From Thermohalobacter berrensis (GTDB lineage Bacteria > Bacillota > Clostridia > Tissierellales > Thermohalobacteraceae): a stretch of DNA of 64,000 nt. The stretch covers positions 248,001 through 312,000 of the forward strand of contig NZ_MCIB01000001.1 of assembly GCF_003609645.1 (NCBI RefSeq). Direction: 5' to 3'. Position numbers and translations under genes: made by a program. The notes under the pieces are model-generated. The model worked only from the letters and a program-made list of their open reading frames with translations, searched no databases and had not been told where the DNA came from. Position 1 is the stretch's first letter. Every line of letters starts with the position of its first letter. Positions 1,577-15,051 of the stretch are shown piece after piece.

Positions 1577-1583
1577 AGCATTA

Positions 1584-1595
1584 GAACATACGTTC
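1584..1595. promoter_or_regulatory. LexA box (SOS operator) of recA
   Basis: GAACATACGTTC followed by G, matching the Firmicute SOS consensus CGAAC-N4-GTTCG at all core positions except the first flanking base. It lies just downstream of the TATAAT, overlapping the predicted start of transcription, where a bound LexA would block recA. lexA itself is at 15094-15717 in this window. Confidence 0.88.
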
Positions 1596-1640
1596 GAATC
1601 AAATGGAAAGGTGGGTGAATCCAGGAGATCCTGGGAAATT

Positions 1641-2681
1641 ATGATGGAAAAGAAAAAAGCGTTAGAAATGGCTATTAACCAGATTGAAAAACAATTTGGA
1701 AAAGGTTCAATAATGAAATTAGGTGAAGATTCTAAGCTTAATGTTGATGCTATATCAACTGGTTCTTTAGAACTAGATATAGCATTAGGAATAGGTGGAG
1801 TGCCTAGAGGAAGAATAGTTGAAATATATGGTCCTGAATCTTCAGGTAAAACTACTGTTGCTTTACATGTAATTGCTGAAGCTCAAAAAAATGGTGGTGC
1901 AGCAGCTTTTATAGATGCTGAGCATGCATTAGATCCTAGTTATGCAAAAAAACTGGGAGTAGATATTGAGAATCTTATTGTTTCCCAACCTGATACAGGG
2001 GAACAAGCATTAGAAATTGCTGAAGCCCTTGTAAGAAGTGGTGCTATAGATGTCATAGTTATAGATTCAGTAGCTGCTTTAGTTCCAAAAGCTGAAATTG
2101 AAGGAGAAATGGGAGATAGCCATGTAGGATTACAAGCAAGGCTTATGTCGCAGGCTCTAAGAAAGTTAGCAGGAGCTATTAAAAAGTCAAATACGACTGC
2201 AATTTTTATAAATCAGCTTAGAGAAAAGGTTGGAGTAATGTTTGGAAATCCAGAAACTACTCCAGGTGGACGTGCTTTAAAGTTTTATGCTTCAGTTAGA
2301 CTTGATGTTAGAAGAATAGAAACTCTTAAAAAAGGTGATGATGTAATCGGGAATAGAATAAGAGTAAAAGTTGTTAAGAATAAGGTTGCTCCACCATTTA
2401 AAAAGGCTGAATTTGATATAATGTACGGAAAAGGAATTTCAAAAGAAGGTAATGTCCTTGATGTAGGGGTATCTTCAGAAATTATTGGTAAAGCAGGAGC
2501 ATGGTATAGTTATGGCAATAATAAACTTGGACAGGGTAGGGAAAATGCTAAACAATTCTTAAGAGAAAACCCAGATATTATGCAAGAAATAGAAGTGAAA
2601 ATTAGGGAAAAGAACGGACTTAAACCTTTAAAAAAGGTTGAAAATAAAAAAGATAATAGTAAAAAAAACAAAAAGAAATAG
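1641..2681 (+). CDS. recA: Recombinase RecA
   Basis: 346-residue RecA counted from the ATG at 1641, the strand-exchange ATPase that also activates LexA self-cleavage. Visible are the Walker A GPESSGKT (about residues 64-71), the [12 protein letters not shown] Walker B region, [15 protein letters not shown] (loop L2 region) and [10 protein letters not shown]. An in-frame GTG at 1611 would add ten residues unlike any RecA N-terminus and has no spaced ribosome site, whereas AGGAG at 1623-1627 precedes the two ATGs at 1641/1644. Unusually, the C-terminal tail is lysine-rich and basic instead of acidic as in many RecA proteins. Confidence 0.97.
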
Positions 2682-2733: not shown

Positions 2734-3369
2734 ATGAGAATAACAGATATTAAACAACAAAAAAGGAATAATAATTTTTATTCAGTATATATTGATGGTG
2801 AATATTCTTTTTCAGTAGAAAAAATTGATATTATAAATTATAATCTTCATGTAGGAAAAGTATTAGATGTTGAAAAATATCATGAAATTATACATAATGT
2901 GTGCTTTAAAAAGTGCTTAAATAAAGCTTATAGACTCCTAACTTATAAAGCTAGGACTAAAGATCAAATGTTTAAAAAACTTAGCAAAGCAGGATATGAT
3001 GACCATGTTATTAAAAAAGTAATTAATAAGCTAGAAGACTTGGGCTATATAGATGATAAAGAGTTTGTCAAGTCTTATATTGATAGTCGTTTAAACAATA
3101 AACCTATGGGAAAAATTAGAATAAAATATGAGTTATTGTCTAAAGGCATAAAAGAAGAGACTATTGATTCTATATTAAATAGTCATAATTTGTCAGAGTA
3201 TGAAAATGCAATTAAACTGATTAAAAAAAAGATAAAAGGTAACTATGATATAATGGAGAAAAAAGATGAGTTAAAGATTAAACGCTTTCTACAAAGAAGG
3301 GGCTTTAATTATGAAGTAATAAATAAAGCTGTAAAAAGGGTTAAAGATGAAGAGAGGTGCAAAAATTAA
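2734..3369 (+). CDS. recX: Regulatory protein RecX
   Basis: 211 residues, the usual length for Gram-positive RecX, which binds RecA filaments and modulates their activity. It shows the three-helix repeats typical of RecX (AYRLLTYKARTKDQMFKKL, then LEDLGYIDDKEFVKSYI, then a final KIKRFLQRRGF segment). AGGAGG at 2723-2728 precedes the ATG by five bases. Its stop codon overlaps the ATG of the next gene (TAATG at 3367-3371), so translation of the nuclease gene is probably coupled to it. Position directly downstream of recA supports the call. Confidence 0.9.
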   Translation: MRITDIKQQKRNNNFYSVYIDGEYSFSVEKIDIINYNLHVGKVLDVEKYHEIIHNVCFKKCLNKAYRLLTYKARTKDQMFKKLSKAGYDDHVIKKVINKLEDLGYIDDKEFVKSYIDSRLNNKPMGKIRIKYELLSKGIKEETIDSILNSHNLSEYENAIKLIKKKIKGNYDIMEKKDELKIKRFLQRRGFNYEVINKAVKRVKDEERCKN

Positions 3370-4358
3370 TGAAATTATTGTTCTTTACAGATACTCACAT
3401 AAGGGGGACCACTCCAAGGAATAGAAAAGATAATTTAATAGAAACACTAGAAACAAAGTTTAAAGAAATTTTGTATATCTCTAAAGAACATGATGTTGAT
3501 TTTATTTTACATGGTGGAGATTTATTTGATAGACCAGATATATCTCCTTCTATAGTGAGGAAGTTTGCTCTTATTTTAAATTCTTTTCATATACCCATAT
3601 ATGCTATAGCTGGTAACCATGACATATATGGCCATAACATTGATACACTTCATCGAACCATGTTAGGATTATTTGATGCTATCGGTATAATAAAACTCAT
3701 TAAACAAGATGAGGTTGTTTTTCTTAGCAGGGACAATATTAAAGTTCAATTAACTGGTCAATCTTACAAATATAATATTGATAGTAAAACTAATAAGAAC
3801 TCCTACATTATAAATAAGAAAGATGACGATGTAGATTATGCTATTCACATAGTACATGGTATGCTATTAGATAAACCATTTATAGAAGGAATACCATATA
3901 CTTTAATTGATGATATATTAGATACTAAAGCAGATATAACACTTTCAGGACATTACCACTCTGGTTTTGGAGTAAAGGAAATTGAAGGAAAATATTTTAT
4001 AAATCCGGGAAGTGTTATTAGAATTACTAATAGTCTAAGAGAAATTGATAGAACACCTAAAGTTGTATTAATAAAACTAGATAAAGATATTAATATAGAT
4101 TTAATACCACTAAAAACGGCTAAGCCTGGAAAGGAAATTCTTGATAGAAGTCATATAGAGATGGCAATGCTTAAGAATGAAAGAATAGTGGAATTTAAAC
4201 AATCTATCGATTCTTCAGCAGACTTTGAAAAACTTGACATTGACCATATTGTTAATAGTTTAGCTCAGACTGAGGGAGTTTCTGACTCTGTTAAGAAAGA
4301 GGCTTTAATGAGAATAGGAAATGCACAAATGTATTATGAGGAGGATGAGGATGAGTAA
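3369..4358 (+). CDS. Mre11/SbcD-like metallophosphoesterase
   Basis: 329-residue calcineurin-like phosphoesterase, the probable nuclease subunit of a Mre11-Rad50-type complex. All metal-binding motifs are present in order: DTH near the N-terminus, GGDLFD, GNHD, an isolated HG and GHYH. The C-terminal 80 residues are a divergent cap ending in a very acidic tail (YYEEDEDE). A GTG at 3357 could add four residues but lies in the ribosome site; the ATG at 3369 overlaps the recX stop. Its own stop overlaps the start of the ATPase gene (TAATG at 4356-4360), tight coupling that suggests stoichiometric production. Whether it acts as exo- or endonuclease is unknown. Confidence 0.85.
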   Translation: MKLLFFTDTHIRGTTPRNRKDNLIETLETKFKEILYISKEHDVDFILHGGDLFDRPDISPSIVRKFALILNSFHIPIYAIAGNHDIYGHNIDTLHRTMLGLFDAIGIIKLIKQDEVVFLSRDNIKVQLTGQSYKYNIDSKTNKNSYIINKKDDDVDYAIHIVHGMLLDKPFIEGIPYTLIDDILDTKADITLSGHYHSGFGVKEIEGKYFINPGSVIRITNSLREIDRTPKVVLIKLDKDINIDLIPLKTAKPGKEILDRSHIEMAMLKNERIVEFKQSIDSSADFEKLDIDHIVNSLAQTEGVSDSVKKEALMRIGNAQMYYEEDEDE

Positions 4359-5800
4359 TGATATATATTAAAAAAGTAATATTAGAAAATTTTCAATCTC
4401 ATAAATATACTGAGTTAGAGTTTAATAATAAATTAAATGTTATTGTTGGCCCTTCAGACCAAGGAAAATCAGCAATAATTAGAGGAATAAAATGGGTACT
4501 ATATAATGAACCTACAGGTACCTTTTTTATTAGAAAGGGTACAAAAGAATGTAGTGTAACTTTAGTATTTAATGATGGAACTACAGTAAAAAGATTGAGA
4601 AGCTCTAGTAAGAACTTATATATATATATTGATTCTAATGGTAAAGAATTTGTATACGAGGGGTTTGGTACAAAGGTTCCAATAGATATTATTAAAAAAC
4701 TTAATATTAAAAAAGTTTATTTAGATGGGAAAAATACAAACTCAATAAATATCGGAGAACAGCTAGAAGGCCCTTTTCTCCTATCCGAAAAGGCATCAAC
4801 TAGGGCTAATGCTATAGGTAGATTAGTAGGAGTGCACATAGTAGATAGAGCAGTTACGGATACTCTTAAAGATATTAGAAATTTAAATATAAGCAGAAAA
4901 AATATTGAACGTAATTTAGAAGAACTAGATAACCAACTGAAGAATTATGCATATCTAGATAGGTTGAAATTAACAATAAATAAATTAGAAAAGGCAAATG
5001 AAAAAATAAAAATTAATCAAGAAAAGATAATTAAATTAAATAAGATTAAAAATAAATATATGGCCATAAAGACTGAAAAAAAGGATATTAATAAAATAAT
5101 CTTACATTTAAAAGACTTAGAATCTATAAACAAATATGTTGTGCAATTGGACACAAAAATCAGACATTACAGAAATTTATCAAATAAAAATATACAATAT
5201 AATACTGTCTCTAATAATATAAAAACAAATTTAGATATTTTAACTAGTATGAAATTATTAGATTCAGCTATTGGTAATTTTAATATATTAAATAATAAGA
5301 TTGAAAAACTGAAAAGCTTAAGAATGTTATTTGATAAATATAATAATGTGAATAAGATTAGGACTTATTTAAAAGATTACTTAAAACAAATGGAGAGTTT
5401 ACAATTGGTTGAGCAAATCAATACTAAATTAATAGATAAATATAATAATCTAACTGTACTATTAAAAAACAAGCAGAAGTTAGAGGATATTAACAAAAGA
5501 TTAGCAATAGGTGAAAAATATTTAGATGCTTTTAACCAGATAGGCAAAGTTAAAGTTTATATAGAGAAAACTGAAAATAAAGTAAAAATTTTAAATAAAC
5601 TTATCGAGGTAAAGTCAAATTATAAATCAATTAATAATGAATTTAAAAAGGTTAAACAATATGTTAGGAGACAAAATCAGACTTTAAAAAAATTATTGGA
5701 AGAATATAGTAACTTATTAAAAGAGATAGAAATTTGTCCTGTTTGTCTAAATAAGATTGATTTAGAAGATATAGAAAAAATTATTAATAATTACAAGTAG
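4358..5800 (+). CDS. Rad50/SbcC-like ATPase, N-terminal half with zinc-hook CxxC
   Basis: 480 residues resembling only the first half of Rad50/SbcC. The Walker A motif GPSDQGKS is at residues 31-38, after the family's NFQSH signature. Residues from about 170 to 455 are lysine- and asparagine-rich coiled coil. The protein stops 17 residues after CPVC (C460, C463), which is the zinc-hook motif normally found in the middle of Rad50. No signature motif or Walker B is present; these are on the product of 6074-6736. A TAG stop, then GGAGGT and a fresh ATG, argue for a genuine split and not a sequencing frameshift. The acting partner is probably the nuclease encoded just upstream. Confidence 0.82.
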   Translation: MIYIKKVILENFQSHKYTELEFNNKLNVIVGPSDQGKSAIIRGIKWVLYNEPTGTFFIRKGTKECSVTLVFNDGTTVKRLRSSSKNLYIYIDSNGKEFVYEGFGTKVPIDIIKKLNIKKVYLDGKNTNSINIGEQLEGPFLLSEKASTRANAIGRLVGVHIVDRAVTDTLKDIRNLNISRKNIERNLEELDNQLKNYAYLDRLKLTINKLEKANEKIKINQEKIIKLNKIKNKYMAIKTEKKDINKIILHLKDLESINKYVVQLDTKIRHYRNLSNKNIQYNTVSNNIKTNLDILTSMKLLDSAIGNFNILNNKIEKLKSLRMLFDKYNNVNKIRTYLKDYLKQMESLQLVEQINTKLIDKYNNLTVLLKNKQKLEDINKRLAIGEKYLDAFNQIGKVKVYIEKTENKVKILNKLIEVKSNYKSINNEFKKVKQYVRRQNQTLKKLLEEYSNLLKEIEICPVCLNKIDLEDIEKIINNYK

Positions 5801-5811
5801 GAGGTATAAAT

Positions 5812-6063
5812 ATGAAAGATTATGAAAAACAACTAAATACTTTAAAGGAAGATTTAGAAAAAGCCAAATCTTTAAAATATAAAGCAGAAGCAAGATTAGA
5901 AGAATTAAATAAGCAAGAACAAGATATAATTAACGAATTAAAAGAGTTAGGAGTCAAACCTGATGATCTAGAAAAGGAAATAAAAAAATTAGAAGAAGAA
6001 ATAGAAGAGTTGTTCAAAAAAGCAAATGAAATGCTTCCAAAGGATATATTAGAAAAGAATTGA
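5812..6063 (+). CDS. Small coiled-coil protein of the split Rad50 operon
   Basis: 83 residues, almost entirely charged heptad-like sequence (Lys, Glu, Leu), with a break at LGVKPDD near the middle that could form a helical hairpin. No catalytic motif and no cysteine. GGAGGT precedes the ATG with good spacing. It lies between the two Rad50 half genes, so it may supply or cap part of the coiled-coil arm, since the C-terminal half gene encodes a much shorter coil than the N-terminal half. That role is inference; I do not recognise a named family. Confidence 0.7.
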   Translation: MKDYEKQLNTLKEDLEKAKSLKYKAEARLEELNKQEQDIINELKELGVKPDDLEKEIKKLEEEIEELFKKANEMLPKDILEKN

Positions 6064-6073
6064 GGTGGATAAT

Positions 6074-6736
6074 ATGGACCATATCATTGAAAAGAACGGA
6101 GAACTTGAAAAAGTTATATCTGACCTTAAAGATTTTTATTCAACAGAAAATGGGAAAAGGCAAAGAATTAAGGAAGAAATAACAAAAAATAAAAATGAAT
6201 TGGGTAAGATAAAAGAAGAGCTGGATTTATTAGAAAAAGTAAATGTTTTATTGCAAAAAACATCAGAATATGCTAGAGAACAAGCAAAAAAACAAATTGA
6301 AAGCTTGGTGACTAATTGTCTACAATATGTACTTGATACAAACGTAGAATTTAAAATAGAAATTGAAGAACTTTATGGAAAACCTAATGCTGAATTTTAT
6401 GTCATATCAAAATATGAAAATCAAGAAGTTAAAACAAAGCCTCATCAGTCTAGGGGTGGTGGAATAGTAGATATAATATCTTTAGCTTTAAGAATTGCAT
6501 TTCTTCAAATTCATAAACCACTTATCCAAGGGCCAATAATATTAGATGAACCTGCAAAACATGTTAGTGAGGAATATATATTCAATGTTGCTGAGTTTTT
6601 AAAACAGGTTTCTGAAATGTTTAATAGACAAATTATAATGGTAACCCATAACACACATTTAGCTTCAGTAGCAACAAACTCTTATAGAGTAGAGTTAAAG
6701 GGACTTACAAGTAAAGTTGAAAAGTTGTCTACATAG
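6074..6736 (+). CDS. Rad50/SbcC-like ATPase, C-terminal half
   Basis: 220 residues carrying the second half of an ABC/SMC-type ATPase head. About 70 residues of coiled coil come first, then a signature-like SRGGGIVDIISLALR (about 126-140), Walker B ILDEP with D158/E159, and a switch histidine in VTHN (H192). There is no Walker A and no CxxC, complementing the product of 4358-5800. The signature has RGGG where canonical Rad50 has SGGE. A GTG at 6065 is in frame but sits inside GAGGTG; the ATG at 6074 is correctly spaced. It ends the nuclease operon. Confidence 0.82.
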   Translation: MDHIIEKNGELEKVISDLKDFYSTENGKRQRIKEEITKNKNELGKIKEELDLLEKVNVLLQKTSEYAREQAKKQIESLVTNCLQYVLDTNVEFKIEIEELYGKPNAEFYVISKYENQEVKTKPHQSRGGGIVDIISLALRIAFLQIHKPLIQGPIILDEPAKHVSEEYIFNVAEFLKQVSEMFNRQIIMVTHNTHLASVATNSYRVELKGLTSKVEKLST

Positions 6737-6987: not shown

Positions 6988-8523
6988 ATTCTAGAAATAG
7001 TAATACTAGAAATAGCAGGAGCTATAATTGGAATTTTTATTGGATATTTTATAAGAAAATTTATAGCTGAAGCAAAAATCAAAACAGCTGAGGAAGAAGC
7101 AAAGAGAATAATAGATGAAGCAATTAAAAAAGGGGAAACAAGCAAAAAAGAATTGCTTTTAGAAGCAAAAGAAGAAGTTCATAGAATGAGAAATGAAGTT
7201 GAAAGAGAAAATAGAGAAAGAAGAAATGAACTTCAAAAACTTGAAAGAAGACTTGTTAACAAAGAAGAAATGGTTGATAGAAAGAGTGAAATTTTAGAAA
7301 GAAAAGAAGAGACTTTAAACAAAAGATCAAAGGAACTAGAAAAGAAAGAAGAGGAAATTGAACAATTATATAATAAACAGGTAGAGGAACTTGAAAGACT
7401 ATCAGGTCTTACAAGGGATGAAGCTAGAGAATTACTTTTAAATGATATTAAAAAGGAAGTAAGCCATGAAGCAGCTATAATGATTAAAGAAATTGAAAGT
7501 AAAGCAAAAGATGAAGCTAATAAAAAGGCTAGAGAAATAATATCGTATGCAATTCAGAAATGTGCTGCTGATCATGTGGCTGAAACTACAGTTTCTGTAG
7601 TTAACCTGCCAAATGATGAAATGAAAGGGAGAATAATTGGTAGGGAAGGTAGAAATATAAGAACATTAGAAACTCTTACAGGTATAGACCTTATAATTGA
7701 TGATACACCTGAAGCTGTTATTCTTTCAGGTTTTGATCCAATAAGAAGGGAAATTGCAAGGATTGCTTTAGAAAAACTTATTATGGATGGTAGAATACAT
7801 CCAGCAAGAATTGAAGAGATGGTTGAAAAAGCTAAAAGAGAAGTTGAAAATAGTATAAGAGAAGAAGGAGAACAAGCTGCATTTGATGTAGGTGTTCATG
7901 GACTGCATTCTGAGTTAATAAAATTATTAGGAAGGCTAAAATTCAGAACAAGTTATGGACAAAATGTTCTTAAACACTCAATCGAAGTAGCACATTTAGC
8001 AGGTTTAATGGCAGCAGAGTTAGGAGCAGATGTTAGAATAGCTAAAAGAGCAGGTCTTCTTCATGATATAGGAAAAGCAGTAGACCATGAAATGGAAGGC
8101 CCACATGTAACAATAGGGGCTGACTTAGCGAAAAAGTATAGAGAATCTAAAGATATAGTACATGCAATTGCAGCACATCATAATGATATTGAACCACAGA
8201 CAATAGAGGCTATTTTAGTTCAAGCTGCCGATGCTATTTCTGCAGCTAGACCTGGAGCTAGGAGAGAAACATTGGAAGCTTACATTAAACGTTTAGAAAA
8301 GCTAGAAGAAATTGCAAACTCCTTCGAAGGAGTAGAAAAATCATATGCTATTCAGGCTGGTAGAGAGATAAGAATAATGGTTAAACCAGATGAAGTTGAT
8401 GACTTAGAAATAGTCAATGTAGCAAGAGATATAGTTAAGAAAATAGAAAATGAAATTGAGTATCCAGGTCAAATAAAGATAAATGTAATAAGAGAAACAA
8501 GAGCAATTGAATATGCTAAATAA
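6988..8523 (+). CDS. rny: Ribonuclease Y (apparent ATT start)
   Basis: RNase Y, the membrane-anchored endoribonuclease that starts mRNA decay in Firmicutes. From 6988 it has 511 residues, the normal length: an N-terminal membrane helix ([20 protein letters not shown]), a long coiled coil, a KH domain with [12 protein letters not shown] near residue 213, and an HD domain with LLHDIGKA near residue 358. There is no ATG, GTG or TTG in frame between the upstream TAG (6970-6972) and a TTG at 7153, which would delete the anchor. AGGAGG at 6973-6978 is followed by two consecutive ATT codons at 6985 and 6988, so initiation at ATT is the best reading. Confidence 0.9.
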
Positions 8524-8706: not shown

Positions 8707-8967
8707 ATGGATGTATTAAAAGTATCAGCAAAATCAAATCCAAATTCTGTTGCAGGTGCATTAGCAGGTGTATTAAGAGAAAAAGGATCAGCAGAAATTC
8801 AAGCAATAGGTGCTGGAGCTATAAACCAAGCAGTAAAAGCAGTAGCTATTGCTAGAGGATTTGTTGCTCCTAGTGGAGTTGACCTAATTTGTATACCAGC
8901 CTTCACAGATATTGAGATTGACGGAGAAGAAAGGACAGCTATTAAGTTAATTGTAGAGCCTAGATAA
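8707..8967 (+). CDS. spoVS: Stage V sporulation protein S
   Basis: 86-residue SpoVS of the Alba-like fold, full length and very conserved (starts MDVLKVSAKSNPNSVAGALAG, ends in IKLIVEPR). In Bacillus it is needed for spore coat assembly and its loss relieves a block on septation; the molecular action is unresolved. AAGGGGG precedes the ATG. It is a single-gene unit with its own sigma-H-like promoter and a strong terminator. In Bacillus ymdB lies between rny and spoVS; here it is absent. Confidence 0.97.
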   Translation: MDVLKVSAKSNPNSVAGALAGVLREKGSAEIQAIGAGAINQAVKAVAIARGFVAPSGVDLICIPAFTDIEIDGEERTAIKLIVEPR

Positions 8968-8991
8968 AGTTTTATAAATTTTTGTATCTCT

Positions 8992-9028
8992 AATAAAAAC
9001 CTGCCATTTTTATGAGCAGGTTTTTATT
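8992..9028 (+). terminator. spoVS terminator
   Basis: Thirteen-base stem (8992-9004 with 9016-9028) with GC-rich CCTGC/GCAGG core and a T run. The A-rich 5' arm makes it potentially bidirectional. Confidence 0.9.
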
Positions 9029-9126
9029 AATTTTATATATTTTTATGTTTTCTTTTTTTTGAATAAAAAATTATATGTGTTGAATAATTATATTAAATAT
9101 AAAACATTTATAAATGAGGGAATTTT

Positions 9127-9984
9127 ATGGATAAAATAGATTTACATGTGCACACTTCTGCTTCCGATAGTCTTTTAACCCCAGAAGAGGTTATTGAATG
9201 GGCAGTAAAAAAAGGAATCAAAGGAATTGCAATAACAGATCATGATACTGTTGAAGGAATAGATAGGGCTATTAATAAGGCTAAAGAATATTCACAAATT
9301 ATGGTTATTCCAGGTATTGAATTTAGTTGTGATTATAAAGACGAAGAAATACACATATTAGGCTATTTTATTGATTACAAATCTACACAAATTAAGGAGG
9401 TAACTAAAAGATTAAAGGATTCAAGATTAAAAAGAGGCAGAAAAATGATAGAAAAACTTTCAAGTATGGGGTTTGATATTTCAATTAAAGATATTGAAGA
9501 TGGAATTAGTTCTGATTTTATAGGCAGACCTCATATTGCTAGAGTTTTAGTTGAAAAAGGTTATGCAGACTCTGTTGAAGAAGCATTTGAAAAATACATA
9601 AACAAAGGAAGACCTGGATATGTAAAACGTAAAAAATTAAGCATAGATGAATCTATTAACTTGATTCATAAAACAGGAGGAGTAGCAGTAATAGCCCATC
9701 CTGGTTTAATAAAAAATAAAGATGCTATTAATCTAGTATTACAAAAGGGTATAGATGGAATAGAGGCGATACATTCTAAACATACAGATGAGGATATAAA
9801 ATATTATAAACATATTGCTGAGGAATTTAAACTTTTTATAACCGGTGGTTCAGATTGTCATGGGAAACTAGTAGATGGAGAACCGATTCTAGGAGATTTT
9901 TTTACAAATTTAGTACAAGTAAAAAAAATGAAAGAAAAATCTAAGTTATATAAATCAAAGGAGGAGGTTAATGTTAAAAAATAG
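9127..9984 (+). CDS. PHP-domain phosphoesterase (TrpH/RNase AM-like)
   Basis: 285-residue PHP protein. Metal-binding motifs run DLHVHT at residue 4, ITDHDT near 38, PGIEFS near 62, HILGYF near 77, IAHPG near 196 and GSDCHG near 241. Family members include E. coli RNase AM and 3',5'-nucleotide bisphosphatases, which clear short RNA ends or pAp. Which substrate is used here cannot be told. The GAGGGAA before the ATG fits initiation. The 3' end overlaps the PadR gene by 14 bases, so they form one unit. Confidence 0.85.
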   Translation: MDKIDLHVHTSASDSLLTPEEVIEWAVKKGIKGIAITDHDTVEGIDRAINKAKEYSQIMVIPGIEFSCDYKDEEIHILGYFIDYKSTQIKEVTKRLKDSRLKRGRKMIEKLSSMGFDISIKDIEDGISSDFIGRPHIARVLVEKGYADSVEEAFEKYINKGRPGYVKRKKLSIDESINLIHKTGGVAVIAHPGLIKNKDAINLVLQKGIDGIEAIHSKHTDEDIKYYKHIAEEFKLFITGGSDCHGKLVDGEPILGDFFTNLVQVKKMKEKSKLYKSKEEVNVKK

Positions 9985-14942: not shown

Positions 14943-14956
14943 CGAACAAATGTTCT
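14943..14956. promoter_or_regulatory. LexA box 1 (yneA side)
   Basis: CGAACAAATGTTCT, one mismatch to CGAAC-N4-GTTCG. It falls just downstream of the yneA TATAAT, over the predicted transcription start. Confidence 0.88.
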
Positions 14957-14965
14957 TACAATTAA

Positions 14966-14994
14966 ATTATAAACAAACAAGTGTTCGGTGTCAA
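14966..14994 (-). promoter_or_regulatory. yneA promoter with nested LexA box 2
   Basis: On the minus strand, TTGACA (14994-14989) and TATAAT (14971-14966) with a 17-base spacer, i.e. both hexamers fully consensus. A LexA box CAAACAAGTGTTCG occupies 14974-14987 within the spacer. A strong promoter held off by LexA is expected. Confidence 0.88.
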
Positions 14995-15011
14995 GGCTAA
15001 ATTGCATTTCT

Positions 15012-15051
15012 CGAACGGATGTTTGAGTTTTGGTGTTTTATGTGATATAAT
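15012..15051 (+). promoter_or_regulatory. lexA promoter with LexA box 3
   Basis: TTGAGT at 15023-15028 and TATAAT at 15046-15051, 17-base spacer. A LexA box CGAACGGATGTTTG at 15012-15025 overlaps the -35 hexamer, the expected arrangement for autorepression. It has one mismatch in the second half-site. Confidence 0.85.

Follow-up and report, generated by a model that had tools for sequence, protein, structure and literature searches.

The 64,000-nucleotide stretch of Thermohalobacter berrensis analysed here (contig NZ_MCIB01000001.1, positions 248,001 to 312,000; "the window") carries an operon of four genes at positions 3369–6736 that probably encodes a Mre11-Rad50-type DNA-end processing complex. 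Its ATPase head would be built from two polypeptides, with the arm and the zinc hook on the N-terminal one. The genes are termed MPE (Mre11-like), N and C (the two halves of a split Rad50) and mid (a small coiled-coil protein), and stand in the order recA-recX-MPE-N-mid-C-rny-spoVS. An earlier note on this DNA had described a Mre11/Rad50-like operon with the Rad50 ATPase divided between two genes; its coordinates and anatomy hold, with family matches of the Mre11 and Rad50 types, and its interpretation is partly supported. We give about even chances to a broader reading, in which the family is a third kind of Mre11-Rad50 machine with an old split head, distributed over mobile elements and, in many Bacillota, lodged in the recA operon as a replacement of SbcCD. 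This machine would have an open-ended arm of ~3–8 modules of 47 residues with a zinc hook, a dedicated small subunit for the arm and an ATP-sensing signature of altered sequence, and derived armless, hookless chains would show which functions need the arm.

The four proteins and the probable two-chain head

MPE (3369..4358, + strand; 329 residues) is a Mre11/SbcD-like calcineurin-type nuclease. All four Mre11/SbcD signatures, DxH, GDxxD, GNHD and GHxH, are present, as DTH, GGDLFD, GNHD and GHYHS. The protein matches PF00149 (Metallophos; 2.1e-16, 61.4 bits, above the cut-off of 21.5) and Mre11 1ii7 (5.7e-7), and scores 27.8 bits against TIGR00619 (sbcd), below the cut-off of 77.65. A strict pattern search of 153 homologues finds all four motifs together in 78, GNH[DE] and GHxH in 135 each, GDxxD in 123 and D[ST]H in 89.

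The start of N (4358..5800, + strand; 480 residues) overlaps the MPE stop as TAATG. Walker A (GPSDQGKS, 31–38), the Q-loop (Q135), an arm of 297 residues (~163–460) and the CPVC hook (460–463) all lie in this one protein, which ends 17 residues past the hook, as the earlier note had stated. All but one of the 87 aligned N proteins have D34 within Walker A (G-x-[ST]-D-x-G-K). C (6074..6736, + strand; 220 residues), the C-terminal half, most likely starts at ATG 6074, after GAGGTGG, rather than at GTG 6065. It carries Walker B (LDEPAKHVS; PIILDE at 157–162 in the 223-residue reading) and the H-loop (VTHN), and no CxxC occurs in C, in agreement with a hook on N only. Between the two lies mid (5812..6063, + strand; 83 residues), which is conserved with N and has invariant G47 and P50 (18 aligned proteins). 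N matches AAA_23 (2.2e-13) and the Rad50-type PRK03918 (5.8e-17), and C matches Rad50_Sulf (5.4e-9), the NCBIfam matches of the operon proteins being all far under the family cut-offs. N, mid and C also belong to three separate PHROG families, 16465 (3.2e-72), 18563 (4.1e-8) and 15167 (2.9e-62), respectively, which supports the division of Rad50 between genes.

In Rad50, the signature motif takes part in ATP binding. The earlier note had placed a signature and Walker B in C; Walker B stands, while the signature is not canonical, since C has RGGGIVD where Rad50 has LSGGE (family consensus GGG[VI]xD). Among 111 C proteins, G131 is kept in 110 and G132 and G133 in all, the next residue is V or I in 106, D136 is present in 109, and the Walker B pair D161/E162 and H195 are invariant. 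The place of the D-loop Asp is taken by S168 in 102 and is Asp in 4, and the Rad50 signature Ser is aligned opposite G131 in the HMMER profile alignment. On these alignments, the split family has a motif set of its own. The missing signature Ser and D-loop Asp count against the proposed complex, as ATP hydrolysis is not assured, and the altered signature, with Walker A and B kept, raises the question of how ATP drives such heads. The role of the Rad50 signature in ATP binding is prior work, as given in the title of structure 1us8.

The AF2 model of C (pLDDT 94.6, pTM 0.78) consists of one helix at residues 2–90 followed by lobe II. It aligns with Rad50 1f2u_B over 143 residues (VIA-align; Z 15.1, 2.4 Å) and with 9a9j_B (Z 15.2), and the N model aligns with 1f2u_A over 132 residues (Z 13.8, 2.5 Å). 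SMC heads score similarly (1xex_A, 14.2, tied with 1f2u_A for N; 1xex_B, 13.9). In the models, both lobes show the Rad50/SMC fold. The crystallised Rad50 head of 1f2t/1f2u also consists of two chains, so a two-chain head is able to fold; these chains are an engineered construct, native Rad50 being one chain with both arm strands. The predicted fold, together with the natural fusions described below, supports the claim of a head formed by two polypeptides.

The arm of N and its hook

The hydrophobicity of the arm repeats every 47 residues. Across 87 aligned N proteins, its autocorrelation is 0.67, 0.59 and 0.53 at lags 47, 94 and 141; residues 197–454 reach 0.74 at lag 47, against a maximum of 0.29 in 1000 shuffles. 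These shuffles do not preserve heptads, and a better control is provided by SbcC arms: across 20 SbcC proteins from the order of the window's genome, the two arm strands give −0.10 and −0.01 at lag 47. When single arms are scanned over lags 30–64, the best lag is 46–48 in 104 of 141 N arms and in 2 of 40 SbcC strands. Mean covariation is also highest at separation 47 among lags 8–199 (z 4.3).

Arm length, taken from D163 to the hook in distinct proteins only, follows the same unit. Chromosomal arms (n = 73) measure 297 residues in 61 cases, 295–301 in 8 more, 250 in 3 and 203 in 1, and viral arms (n = 65) cluster near 150, 197, 245, 297 and 344. Overall, 117 of 143 distinct N proteins lie within 3 residues of 297+47n, and unit number runs from about 3 to 8. 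Among the 51 arms with lengths away from 297, the distance to a whole number of units is at most 3 residues in 28 and at most 5 in 37, where 15% and 23% would be expected if lengths were even. Periodicity and lengths show the arm, as far as sequence comparison goes, to be built of 47-residue units in tandem, with length differences that are mostly whole units. The longest arm, of 393 residues (~8 units), belongs to a second copy: genome G044 carries, beside its recA-linked operon, a plasmid/phage-like set (L061) with a 604-residue N and a 414-residue MPE frame.

The hook motif is a constant feature of N. CxxC is present in all 87 aligned proteins and CPxC in 86, and zinc binding is predicted. 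In 142 of 143 distinct N proteins, 4–26 residues separate the hook from the chain end; the exception is L183, a fused MPE-N viral ORF (open reading frame) in which the last CxxC stands 138 residues before the end. In two loci, L084 and L116, the N frame is broken into two pieces by sequence errors or as a pseudogene.

The arm would be a one-way rod, as opposed to the up-and-down coil of Rad50. An unlikely but serious alternative keeps the two-chain head and lets the arm fold back, with the 47-residue units stacked as helical hairpins or a solenoid and the hook alongside the units or close to the head. On this reading, a covariation peak at separation 47 is expected if equivalent positions of adjacent units touch. 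In addition, the hydrophobic stripe shifts register twice per unit in our reading of the autocorrelation table, and AF2 confidence dips about once per unit. The peak could come from contact between neighbouring units or from homogenised repeats, and the positive charge correlation at lag 47 speaks for the latter. Unit number steps by one, and in a simple zig-zag each such step would move the hook to the opposite end; the test for antiparallel (anti-diagonal) covariation at hairpin turns gives no clear centre in the arm.

Several observations on the arm weigh against a straight modular rod. The stripe pattern and the lag-47 covariation are also compatible with packed units, and the AF2 model of N is weak overall (pTM 0.36; helices with breaks about every 47 residues), so that the arm may run straight or be folded. 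For the N of the window by itself, lag 47 comes only third, short viral arms show little periodicity, and the remainder of the 51 arms away from 297 fit no whole unit number.

Another possibility is an arm of the ordinary Rad50 coiled-coil type, with mid and the C helix supplying the descending strand. The single helix at C residues 2–90, the coiled-coil look of mid and the presence of mid with every arm-bearing N in the 21-locus series described below fit this arrangement, which is nevertheless quite improbable: mid (~80) and the C helix (~90) are too short for arms of ~150–393 residues, and their lengths do not track that of the arm. N ranges from 321 to 604 residues, whereas mid and C keep their size; the Spearman coefficients of N length with theirs are 0.00 and 0.07, respectively (125 distinct loci). 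The suggestion of the earlier note that the 83-residue protein balances the unequal arms falls with the same numbers.

Distribution, natural fusions and the relation to SbcCD

The order was sampled with 60 genomes, the window's own and 59 relatives. C matches at E ≤ 0.001 occur in 43 of these genomes, the weak ones in longer or other ATPase frames, and a close C (E ≤ 1.4e-48) forms an ORF of its own (219–249 residues) in 27, i.e., 26 relatives and the window's genome. A phylum-wide sample has C at E ≤ 1e-25 in 48 of 299 genomes. In total, 186 loci were fetched: those of the 26 relatives, the best 80 of 294 confirmed GTDB loci and the best 80 of 188 IMG/VR loci, with at least 12 of the 26 relatives repeating GTDB genomes. 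The viral relatives were obtained with an alignment as query, a single C protein having given none. C and mid are present in all 26 of the relatives' regions, some of which are cut by contig ends, with N in 25, MPE in 24 and recA in 23. The GTDB loci contain N in 63, mid in 64 and MPE in 60, and the IMG/VR loci N in 77, mid in 61 and MPE in 76, with a recA-like ORF within 6 kb of MPE in 14. No single ORF joins N and C in the 186 loci; the relatives examined share the split, and none has a single-chain Rad50 with the same ends.

In some chromosomes the halves are also separated in space. In 16 of the 80 GTDB loci, C has neither N nor mid nearby, and in 13 of these it adjoins rny; N was found at another site in 13 of 14 searched genomes with a lone C (E ≤ 1.8e-108; the copy of G073 lies in a frame with stops), the remaining one being a 1.6-Mb metagenome-assembled genome. 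In four fetched regions (two Acetivibrio, Pseudobacteroides and DTU079), the other site holds MPE-N-mid. Here mid travels with N, and a frameshift could not join N to C. A single broken or mis-assembled sbcC, for which nothing speaks except the split itself, has practically no probability left; a frame-shifted gene is excluded because the genes are distinct in 27 of 60 genomes and stand at different chromosomal sites in one group, and 160 further loci and the ribosome-binding sites preceding mid and C in the window point the same way. The split Rad50 is an old, conserved design in many Clostridia and in some phages and plasmids, and no broken gene.

Joined forms of N and C have been found in one lineage. 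In one genome of the phylum sample, C lies in a 702-residue frame, and the 700-residue ORF there (L278) comprises MPE, the N lobe and the C lobe, with 22 residues between the lobes. This chain has no CxxC and no mid gene and adjoins addB (TIGR02773, 1225.6 bits). In the same class, 44 of 113 genomes match it, many via MPE alone; another 20 regions, chosen mainly for their N or C matches, bring the series to 21 loci. N and C are joined in 11 of them, and MPE is joined as well in 6 genomes, all six beside addB, as are 7 of the 11 N-C fused loci. CxxC and mid are absent from all 11 fused loci and present in all 10 split ones. The arm is gone or mostly gone, the lobes being 4–22 residues apart in 10 of the 11; L320 keeps a short coil stretch. 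L309, L310 and L320 have lost the near-invariant GGG, which now reads GSG or NRA, and are possibly decaying or re-purposed ATPases.

A tree built from the two lobes nests the fused forms within the split ones by one change (support 94, long branches), so the split is older than these fusions. The fusions mark N and C as the two halves of a machine that includes MPE, and mid as a companion of the arm and hook.

The split operon (27 genomes) and SbcC (25 genomes with PF13558, the SbcC Walker B, above cut-off) share no genome among the 60 (Fisher p = 5e-10 over the 59 relatives, a value that overstates the exclusion since it is clustered by phylogeny), and the split operon therefore probably replaces SbcCD. 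Families f1 and f4 hold both kinds. A strong SbcD (≥120 bits) accompanies SbcC in 24 of the 25 genomes. The window's genome has no PF13558 or TIGR00618 match above cut-off, and two split genomes, G024 and G025, have sub-threshold PF13558 matches in frames of 376 and 494 residues. In 11 of 14 SbcC genomes, the recA region shows rny after recA and none of the operon genes in the interval; one is cut by a contig end, and rny lies outside the region in two. These findings suggest that many Clostridia without SbcCD carry the split operon instead.

The replacement of SbcCD and the link between fusion and arm loss are open to objection on several counts. Besides the phylogenetic clustering, neither system is found in 8 of the 60 genomes, five of which are under 90% complete. 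The 25th SbcC genome (G026) has a 1404-residue frame without a strong SbcD, and the window's genome retains a SbcD-like gene (G000:C34), which we take to be perhaps yhaO. The correlation between fusion and loss of the arm is a single tree event, not 11.

The link to recombination genes holds with another partner than the earlier note had named: it is recA, not recX, to which the operon is generally coupled. It lies directly 3' of recA (1641..2681 in the window, + strand) in the relatives examined, with a recA-MPE gap of ≤90 nucleotides in 23 of 23 relatives and of ≤101 in 55 of 58 GTDB loci holding both. recX (2734..3369, + strand), the stop of which overlaps the MPE start as TAATG, seldom intervenes elsewhere (2 of these 58 loci and 0 of the 23 relatives). 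Service in RecA-dependent repair would follow from gene order and the exclusion with SbcC. On the right, the conserved neighbour is a gene at 7000..8523 (+ strand, start provisional) which we take to be rny (RNase Y). The operon usually sits between recA and rny, which adjoin in genomes without it.

A putative LexA-type box, AGAACATACGTTCG, lies 5' of recA at 1583..1596. Among the recA ORFs of the chromosomal loci fetched, 57 of 80 have the core GAACN4GTTC nearby, with some genomes counted twice. Three more such boxes, CGAACAAATGTTCT, CAAACAAGTGTTCG and CGAACGGATGTTTG, are clustered at 14943–15025, perhaps the promoter of lexA or another SOS gene. The LexA label of these putative sites follows the consensus of such boxes. 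Between recA and recX, an inverted repeat (2693–2716; 10 pairs, 4-base loop), scored on the − strand and followed on the + strand by AATTTT, might attenuate readthrough from recA.

Mobile copies, proposed mechanism and known systems

The family also occurs outside chromosomes. C is found in nine plasmid records, and phage records include six with C and five with N. MPE and N are fused in 5 of the 80 viral loci and in a Geobacillus plasmid. Bacillus phage vB_BboS-125 (L031) has the PHROG versions of N, mid and C together with an MPE that is unannotated in the record (8965–9945); between N and mid lies an AP2-domain gene (7125–7697), possibly a homing endonuclease. In a tree of 157 C proteins, the root of which is not known, mobile and chromosomal labels need two changes, so that the family seems to have settled in chromosomes once or twice while being otherwise distributed over phages and plasmids.

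The occurrence in phages, IMG/VR contigs and plasmids could mean that the system is chiefly a mobile-element or defence system (anti-phage or anti-plasmid) settled beside recA, and no housekeeping substitute for SbcCD. A PADLOC scan of the operon proteins gives matches of N to LmuB (1.6e-15), of C to mad3 (5.8e-10) and of these two proteins to PbeC and GajA in part, and one weak match of MPE. The N and C matches are, however, partial and ATPase-wide, the chromosomal copies stand in a conserved recA neighbourhood over many families after one or two tree changes, and the exclusion with SbcC speaks against a mainly mobile or defensive role, which we regard as improbable.

In the proposed complex, N would bring Walker A, the Q-loop and the entire arm with the zinc hook at the free end, and C the modified signature, Walker B, the H-loop and a short coil packing at the arm base. 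Together they would form an ATP-binding head around MPE, the nuclease bound at the base of the arm. Two heads would dimerise on DNA ends, with two N tips sharing one zinc and ATP driving head closure via the altered signature. The small protein mid would accompany the arm as a stabiliser of arm or hook. The complex would do the job of SbcCD beside RecA, feeding ends to it.

A published description of a split Rad50 was not found in the full-text literature searched, most subscription papers lying outside that coverage. In the available part of a jumbo-phage overview (PMC7824862), SbcC is treated as one ABC ATPase, and SbcC and Rad50 are unmentioned in that of PMC6375668. PHROGs 16465 (exonuclease), 18563 (unknown) and 15167 (ATPase) are the phage N, mid and C, catalogued separately and not stated to form one complex. 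The available portion of Yoshida et al. 2011 (PMC3175470) describes Mre11/Rad50 fusion proteins, two without one ATPase segment, which may be MPE-N fusions of the split family. The likeness lies in MPE joined to a part of Rad50; that portion deals with fusions, not with a split Rad50, a recA-linked operon, repeats or a small subunit.

The split family resembles SbcCD in pairing a nuclease with an ABC ATPase that has an arm and a CPxC hook, and in its repair-gene neighbourhood. The seven fused forms adjoining addB add to this likeness, as sbcDC in Gram-positives is usually found beside addB. With the archaeal and eukaryotic Mre11-Rad50 it shares the head fold, since both modelled lobes superpose on P. 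furiosus Rad50. It differs from SbcCD by its two-chain head, the extra small subunit, an arm that is made of 47-residue units and ends close to the hook, xGGG[VI] in place of LSGGE and Ser at the place of the D-loop Asp. The role of the long Rad50 arm and zinc hook is a long-standing question. In canonical SbcC/Rad50, a single chain holds both lobes and both arm strands; in the loci examined, the split family has no such chain. Its arm comes in modular lengths and belongs to a subunit distinct from the C half, and armless relatives exist beside it.

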